55,677 nt of DNA, taken from positions 1-55,677 of the forward strand of contig JAITNW010000005.1 of NCBI GenBank assembly GCA_031290255.1, written 5' to 3'. This document shows positions 36,053-37,321 of this stretch, in pieces. This DNA is from Candidatus Nomurabacteria bacterium. GTDB taxonomy: Bacteria > Patescibacteriota > Saccharimonadia > Saccharimonadales > Saccharimonadaceae. The notes beneath the pieces are model-generated. The model searched no databases. It had not been told where the DNA came from and saw nothing but the letters and a program-made list of their open reading frames with translations. Within the stretch, counting starts at the first letter, position 1. Each line of letters starts with the position of its first letter. The position numbers and the translations under genes were made by a program.

Positions 36053-36061
36053 TGCTACAAT
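36053..36061 (+). promoter_or_regulatory. Extended -10 for the leader ORF / BspA-like gene
   Basis: TGCTACAAT, the commonest extended -10 in this window. Transcription from about 36068 would cross the leader ORF, the (CT)n tract and the terminator before reaching the gene at 36284. The stretch 35928-36052 holds minor inverted repeats (CCCACTG/CAGTGGG) and no gene. Confidence 0.5.
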
Positions 36062-36111
36062 GATTATGTAAATAAGTGGTGAAGTGCTTATAAATTATCA
36101 ATGAGGACGTC

Positions 36112-36237
36112 ATGATGAAAATATCGACATTGACTAGGGGGTTTGGGGCGAAATCCTCTCTCTCTCTCTCTCTCTCTCTCTCTCGTAAAGCATTAACCCG
36201 TGTCTTATATAACTTTGGAGGCTCGCCTATGGGATGA
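36112..36237 (+). CDS. Short leader ORF with (CT)n tract, 41 aa (putative)
   Basis: ATGATGAAA at 36112 is preceded by GAGGA at 5-nt spacing. In the present repeat number the frame runs MMKISTLTRG, then a Ser-Leu repeat encoded by (CT)14, then RKALTRVLYNFGGSPMG and TGA. The stop lies inside the right arm of the terminator at 36218-36247. With one CT more or fewer, the frame stops at TAA 36186 or TAA 36194, well before the terminator. The N-terminus resembles that of the downstream gene (MKIISTITTG), so it could also be the decayed start of a paralogue. Translation is unproven. Confidence 0.45.
   Translation: MMKISTLTRGFGAKSSLSLSLSLSRKALTRVLYNFGGSPMG
36156..36184 (+). repeat. (CT)14 simple-sequence repeat
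   Basis: Fourteen CT units plus a final C. Dinucleotide tracts of this length are prone to slippage and are rare in a compact genome. A one-unit change shifts the leader ORF's frame. Confidence 0.98.
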
Positions 36238-36247
36238 GCCTCTTTTT
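36218..36247 (+). terminator. Intrinsic terminator between leader ORF and BspA-like gene
   Basis: GAGGCTC (36218-36224) pairs with GAGCCTC (36236-36242) across an 11-nt loop, followed by T5. It lies 37 nt before the next start codon and overlaps the end of the leader ORF, as in an attenuator. Confidence 0.75.
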
Positions 36248-36283
36248 GGCGCGACAACTAATTTTTAATGAAAGGAAATGATC

Positions 36284-37321
36284 ATGAAAATAATATCAAC
36301 AATAACAACTGGGCTGGCGGCATTGGTGCTGGTGGTTGGTGCGGCGGTGTTTGGCGCGCCTCAGCAAGTCTCGGCGTTGTATGACGCGGACGTGCTGTGT
36401 ACGGTGTTTGATACGAACGAGTGCGCGATAGATGCAGTGGATATAGGTGGGATTTCTGGGCGAATAATATTCACAATAGGGGGCGGACACGCTACGCTAA
36501 CAGCCCATGACAATTTCCAAGGCGACCTGAACATACCAAGTTCAATTGTGTTTAGTGATGATAGCAATACCTATGAAGTAACGGGGATTGGCAACAACGT
36601 GTTTTTGGCTAATACCAATTTAGGAGATGTTACCGTGCCGAATACCATAGAACAGATTGGCGAAAGTGCGTTCCAGGGCTCGTCGATTGGCGAATTGACT
36701 TTTCAATCAGGTGGCACTGAGGAGCTGGTTATTTTGCCGCAGGCGTTTTATAACAGCTGGGCGAGTGGCACAATTGCTTTTCCGAGTCGGCTGGCTGAAA
36801 TTCAATCAGATGCGTTTGGCAATACCGCTATTGATGGAATTACCTTTGAGAACGGTGGGAGTTCAGCGTTGACGATCGGTAGCACAGCGTTTTACGGTGC
36901 TGTGGTCCTGACGGGCAGCGTAACTTTTCCAGCTAATTTATCTGCTCTTGGCGATAATGCTTTTGCGAATACTGGCATTACCGATGTTTACTTTCTTGGG
37001 TTGGACGGAGCGGCAATTTCGGTTACGGCGGCAGGGGCTGCTGAGCCTACTTTTGAGTCAAGTGTGCTGATTCATTATTTGTGTAATGCGGTGAATTTCT
37101 TGGACTTTGACGGTGTGGGGACTGGCACTTGGAACGGTTACGCGGTGGTGCCGATAGCGGCTTGTGTTACGCCAGACGATTCCATAAAAGCCCCGTCCTC
37201 TGGTGTTTCTGCTGGCGGTACGACCGACCAGTCAACAAGTTCAATTGTTGTTACGGTGGTGGCTGCCTTGGCGTTGGCTGGTGCGGTCTTGGCTGGTCGC
37301 AAACTGGTGTTTAAGAAATAG
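36284..37321 (+). CDS. BspA-like leucine-rich-repeat surface protein
   Basis: The 345-residue protein has a signal peptide (about 1-35, ending VSAL) and LRR_5/BspA-type repeats from about 75 to 255 (LGDVTVPNTIEQIGESAFQ, IQSDAFGNTAI, LGDNAFANTGI). A Ser/Thr-rich linker, a C-terminal helix (VVTVVAALALAGAVLAG) and RKLVFKK form a membrane or wall anchor, although no LPxTG is seen. Such proteins bind host or partner cell surfaces. The start at 36284 is preferred over 36278, as AAAGG is about 8 nt upstream. It lies behind a (CT)n leader and terminator, which suggests phase-variable expression. Confidence 0.85.
   Translation: MKIISTITTGLAALVLVVGAAVFGAPQQVSALYDADVLCTVFDTNECAIDAVDIGGISGRIIFTIGGGHATLTAHDNFQGDLNIPSSIVFSDDSNTYEVTGIGNNVFLANTNLGDVTVPNTIEQIGESAFQGSSIGELTFQSGGTEELVILPQAFYNSWASGTIAFPSRLAEIQSDAFGNTAIDGITFENGGSSALTIGSTAFYGAVVLTGSVTFPANLSALGDNAFANTGITDVYFLGLDGAAISVTAAGAAEPTFESSVLIHYLCNAVNFLDFDGVGTGTWNGYAVVPIAACVTPDDSIKAPSSGVSAGGTTDQSTSSIVVTVVAALALAGAVLAGRKLVFKK

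Follow-up and report, generated by a model that had tools for sequence, protein, structure and literature searches.

The region upstream of a gene for a BspA-type LRR surface protein has the anatomy of a phase-variable, translation-dependent transcription attenuator, a reading of the locus in which we place moderate confidence. The locus lies on the + strand of the window, by which we mean the whole 55,677-nt stretch of DNA that was analyzed, part of a 0.70-Mb source genome in 16 contigs, whose size, together with the filing of a relative as Candidatus Nomurabacteria, points to Patescibacteria. According to our model, transcription would start at about position 36068 and read the leader ORF, with a ribosome following behind RNA polymerase. 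With a CT number of 2 mod 3 (at present 14), this ribosome would translate through the repeat tract to the TGA at 36235–36237, where it would cover both hairpin arms of an intrinsic terminator, so that transcription could enter the BspA-type gene and probably the DUF4870-like gene behind it. With all other CT numbers, the ribosome would halt at 36188 or 36196, the hairpin would fold freely and transcription would end. A slipped-strand change of a single CT unit would then be sufficient to switch the surface protein. Variation of the tract, translation of the leader and readthrough that follows the phase are each steps that we infer.

In its present phase, the leader ORF (MMKISTLTRGFGAKSSLSLSLSLSRKALTRVLYNFGGSPMG, then stop; 36112–36237, + strand, recomputed reading frame) starts at ATG 36112 or, alternatively, at ATG 36115, with the putative ribosome site GAGGA (36103–36107) located 5–8 nt 5' of these codons; the relative G104 has AAGGAGG at the position matching GAGGA. 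The ORF harbors a (CT)14 tract at 36156–36183, the presumed slippage site, which far exceeds every other dinucleotide run in the window (the runner-up measures 10 nt). The preliminary description of this DNA had already pointed to a (CT)14-containing ORF with a plausible ribosome site, as well as to a present-frame stop in the right arm of the terminator; both features were recovered here, the latter from recomputed frames and the predicted fold. When frames were recomputed for n = 8 to 20, tracts of 8, 11, 14, 17, and 20 units all ended the leader at 36237, and all remaining ones ended it at one of two TAA codons, at 36186–36188 (n = 13, 16, 19; 29 nt 5' of the hairpin) or at 36194–36196 (n = 12, 15, 18; 21 nt 5' of the hairpin). 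The period of three is strict, consistent with the earlier notion that one repeat number in three leads into the hairpin; the two OFF stops had likewise been placed correctly, but their distance to the hairpin, originally put at 25–30 nt, is corrected to the values given here. The leader's TGA end is real because TGA is a normal stop in this organism, closing 4 of 36 main ORFs. For the same reason, we rejected a reading of TGA as glycine, the decoding used in Gracilibacteria. The hairpin region additionally carries GGAGG, seven bases, and then ATG GGA TGA (36216–36237), that is, a potential ribosome site and a two-codon ORF inside the hairpin and in the ON frame of the leader.

The terminator itself (GAGGCTC-GCCTATGGGAT-GAGCCTC-TTTTT; 36218–36247, + strand) is a strong one, comprising a stem of seven perfect G-C-rich pairs and two more, followed by TTTTT, with a predicted folding energy of −14.5 to −16 kcal/mol. 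Defining strict terminators as having at least 7 pairs, at least 5 of them G-C, and a T-run, we found four in the 55.7-kb window, three on the + strand and one on the − strand, relative to 0.6 per strand in Markov shuffles; the chance of encountering one in the gap of about 100 nt ahead of the BspA-type gene amounts to roughly 0.001. Another of the four, at 9061–9083, separates two convergent genes, which suggests that the organism employs intrinsic terminators. Across the 23 kb scanned downstream of 148 family tracts, where about 0.3 strict terminators were expected by chance, that of the window was the only one, a count that weighs against attenuation. Terminator-like matches following tracts L191, L228, L230, and L289 were discarded as weaker, lying within coding sequence or outside a leader setting.

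This arrangement closely resembles that of the pil1 and pil3 pilus loci of Streptococcus gallolyticus, for which phase-variable attenuation driven by GCAGA repeats in the leaders has been proven (PMC3894217). There, 39 nt separate the end of the OFF leader from the terminator; isolates with a distance of at least 28 nt are low, those with stops within or past the hairpin high (PMC3894217). Common to both systems is a simple repeat in a leader ORF whose number determines whether translation stops before or inside/after a terminator, with surface genes downstream. At the window locus, too, the short repeat has a unit that is not a multiple of 3 and resides in a leader ORF with a ribosome site, an intrinsic terminator separates leader and structural gene, and the OFF phases stop 29 or 21 nt before the hairpin, the ON phase in its right arm. 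As the 21-nt OFF phase is nearer to the hairpin than the 28 nt that are low in pil1, this phase may be leaky. The systems differ in repeat unit (5-nt GCAGA versus 2-nt CT), in downstream genes (pilus operons versus a BspA-type LRR protein) and in host (Firmicutes versus a Patescibacteria-type genome). Furthermore, the leader of the window, unlike those of pil1/pil3, is homologous to an N-terminal signal cassette, and the function that is proposed for the window locus is proven for pil1/pil3. In the literature that we found, repeat-driven phase variation via transcription attenuation has been shown only for the S. gallolyticus pili, and our literature search retrieved no paper on phase variation of surface proteins or pilins in Patescibacteria. 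The attenuation mechanism itself is thus already known; its operation by a dinucleotide repeat in Patescibacteria would be new.

A candidate promoter precedes the leader (36036–36061, + strand), consisting of an extended −10 element (TGCTACAAT, 36053–36061) and a weak −35 element (TTGATT, 36036–36041). At least 7/8 of TGNTATAAT is present within 110 nt upstream of 58% of 96 tract leader or fusion starts, versus 12% in shuffles, and several tract loci carry exactly the TGCTACAAT of the window. Judged from these matches, the promoter type 5' of tract leaders appears to be conserved across relatives. Between the hairpin and the BspA-type gene, no good promoter was found by motif matching. One might nevertheless envisage that the BspA-type gene is driven by a cryptic start located inside the hairpin or immediately behind it, the tract then being irrelevant, given that promoters of this group are poorly known and that 36260–36290 is AT-rich with weak promoter matches. 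The best of these, however, would put its −10 element inside the coding region and the start beyond ATG 36284, and we consider this explanation very improbable.

The gene behind the terminator (36284–37321, + strand) encodes a protein of 345 aa with a predicted signal peptide and C-terminal membrane anchor; a match to Pfam LRR_5 (PF13306, E = 1.3e-25) settles the predicted fold class. The ORF opens at ATG 36278, and ATG 36284 has the better ribosome site (GGAAA, 36274–36278), in agreement with the earlier placement of a BspA-like gene at 36284; the gene is intact. Its frame is closed upstream by TGA 36269–36271, so that fusion with the leader is impossible at any repeat number. Start codon, tract and gene body accordingly do not share a frame here, in line with the preliminary description, which had proposed a switch by a route other than shifting of the surface protein's own frame. 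A DUF4870-like membrane protein gene (37344–37787, + strand; PF09685 at 20.8 bits, under the 25-bit cut-off) begins 22 nt past the BspA-type gene and, considering this spacing, is probably co-transcribed with it and hence subject to the same switch. Elsewhere in the window, at 30089–33769, we noted an ORF of 1226 aa that gave no Pfam match at E 0.001 and carries a short CTCCAGCGCCAA repeat near its end.

Ten loci in our tract census combine a tract with a separate leader ORF 5' of a membrane or surface gene. In six of them, one phase of the leader ends exactly at an ATGA stop/start overlap, and in three more, one phase overlaps the gene start by 10–20 nt; the window is the exception, having a terminator instead of a start-codon overlap. 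The behavior of these relatives, whose tract leaders run in one phase to the start of the surface gene, would be in line with translational coupling at the window locus as well, with ON-phase ribosomes re-initiating at the BspA-type gene or opening its ribosome site and the hairpin being secondary. We regard this as improbable: the ON stop codon of the window begins 49 nt and ends 46 nt before ATG 36284, the BspA-type gene has a ribosome site of its own, and a T run after a G-C stem is the signature of a terminator. Moreover, 25% of control genes likewise show an ATGA behind an open frame, which makes the enrichment among the relatives modest and coupling there likely, albeit short of proven. 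The ATGA leader L075 is conserved in a second species (L308). Leaders with ATGA overlaps, usually preceding a surface gene (L075, L308, L032, L169, L177, L185, L191; also L068 and L097), are possible cases of phase-variable stop/start coupling.

As to the origin of the leader, its 5' part is homologous at the DNA level to the N-terminus of a surface protein of G104, a family member whose MAG is filed as Candidatus Nomurabacteria (local score 55 versus a maximum of 38 in 3000 shuffles). The G104 protein reads MKISTIIRSFRAKPT(SL)nRKRGLKVFGTAVTVLALLVGG, the window MKISTLTRGFGAKSS(SL)nRKALTRVLYNF. The frame that yields RKALTRV and enters the hairpin in the window corresponds to the one giving RKRGLKV in the G104 protein; the two ON frames are thus the same. 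In view of this homology and the common ON frame, the leader is most simply explained as a detached N-terminal cassette that is here followed by a terminator; in G104, the cassette by its anatomy acts by ordinary frame-shifting of its own protein. The 5' region of the BspA-type gene resembles that of the leader, which suggests a duplication. A DNA search with the leader region retrieved, besides the G104 cassette, tract-only or short chance matches, and a relaxed cassette pattern matched just two contigs of the G104 MAG among the species genomes. In G104, one contig breaks off precisely where the homologous tract ends and shares exactly 119 nt with the contig that follows, and the G104 record names carry k119; such a branch in the assembly graph is what mixed tract lengths should produce, though PCR stutter could do the same. 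Contigs ending exactly at a tract boundary were also observed for L162, L194, and L198 (and for L195 and L199 with terminal 119-mers). Such contig ends suggest that tract length differed between reads, stutter being the alternative.

Two tRNA-Arg genes lie upstream of the leader, and Rfam reported only these two tRNAs above threshold at the locus. The closest relative by MurB (68%), G002, has the same MurB and tRNA-Arg neighborhood without the BspA-type gene, so the locus can be viewed as an islet beside a tRNA. Searches with the BspA-type protein yielded generic LRR matches alone in 12 relatives and no ortholog in 84,980 species genomes. An ortholog of the leader–hairpin–BspA unit was not found in DNA and protein searches of relatives and species genomes, and the phage collection contained no near match.

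Because the leader is homologous to an ordinary N-terminal cassette, the main rival to attenuation is a live one: the leader may be a detached remnant, left from the 5' end of a once phase-variable surface gene, the rest of which disappeared or was moved when the BspA cassette came in next to the tRNA. The tract might still slip, but the BspA-type gene would not be controlled by it, and the hairpin would be ordinary or incidental. Apart from the normal N-terminal fusion of the homologous cassette and tract in G104, this scenario would account for the likeness of the leader and BspA 5' regions, for the islet missing from G002 at the same tRNA-Arg site and for the finding of just one such arrangement, lacking an ortholog, among 148 tracts. 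It would further explain the early OFF stops, which came in part with the cassette, (CT)nCGTAAA yielding TAA in one OFF phase. On the other hand, the leader has kept its promoter, ribosome site, tract and open ON frame. Directly behind the terminator stands an intact surface gene equipped with a ribosome site but no clear promoter of its own, and the ON stop falls within the hairpin as in pil1. Weighing these points, we deem a mere remnant unlikely, though it deserves to be taken seriously. Slippage-driven attenuation as put forward in the preliminary description is therefore supported in part: it is backed by a geometry matching that of pil1/pil3, but qualified by the locus being a single case and by the cassette homology.

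That the tract should slip is suggested by its relatives. CT runs of at least 9 units occur in 42 of 295 family genomes; elsewhere in the same order, very few genomes have them. Our census comprised 148 unique tracts of at least 8 units each, 87 of which directly follow the start codon of an ORF that reaches a membrane segment, a signal peptide or the type IV pilin start GFTIVELL. As assembled, their phases are near random (35/28/24). Since these tracts precede the membrane segment or pilin cleavage motif, the repeat number alters the frame and hardly the mature protein; with 87 of the 148 tracts at the N-terminus in random phase, own-frame shifting appears to be the family norm, amounting by anatomy to ordinary translational phase variation. 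We detected mutS in none of 11 family genomes, including the genome under study, as opposed to 11 of 14 control genomes. The absence of MutS favors tract instability, so the family tracts should slip, and slippage is likely from this tract biology as a whole. The second tract of the genome (L002, G000:C4:29101-29132), ATGGCGCAAATC(GA)11, continues, as assembled, in the frame of a membrane/surface protein of more than 500 aa, and a second ribosome site and ATG directly follow it. In G256, six type IV pilin-like genes stand in a row (L215, G256:C10:94000-103200), each with its own CT tract upstream of GFTIVELL in the prepilin leader, possibly forming a combinatorial pilin switch. Four G002 loci (L036, L044, L048, L051) begin alike with ATG...CGATCC(GA)n, behind which comes a long nested inverted repeat; three of them are near contig ends, as dispersed repeats would be.

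In classical translational contingency loci, as known from Haemophilus, Neisseria, and Campylobacter, a simple sequence repeat is located in the gene's own ORF. The family CT/AG tracts look like such loci, and 87 of them fit; the window locus shares with this type the slippage tract, the surface gene and one phase in three being ON, but its tract belongs to another ORF, which no phase joins to the BspA-type gene. A leader peptide and translation-dependent control of a terminator are also features of trp-type attenuators of amino-acid biosynthesis. Here, however, a regulatory codon run for an amino acid is lacking and an antiterminator hairpin is not needed, and the input would be the repeat number rather than tRNA charging.

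As a tentative idea, to which we assign somewhat less than even credence, a single cassette of promoter, short N-terminus and CT/AG tract may be used in three ways in this family: fused to the surface protein, for frame switching; as a separate leader reaching the start codon of the surface gene, for phase-variable stop/start coupling; and, in the window, as a leader reaching a terminator, for phase-variable attenuation. If so, surface genes and pilins would make up a phasome in these genomes, in the absence of detectable MutS. Were a pil-type switch built on a dinucleotide to operate in this bacterium, which is reduced and probably attached to a host, it would mean that the design originates independently and can evolve from an ordinary contingency tract at an N-terminus. 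The census suggests that phase-variable surface proteins and pilins are widespread among these organisms, which are believed to use other bacteria as hosts, with a bearing on host attachment and phage escape.
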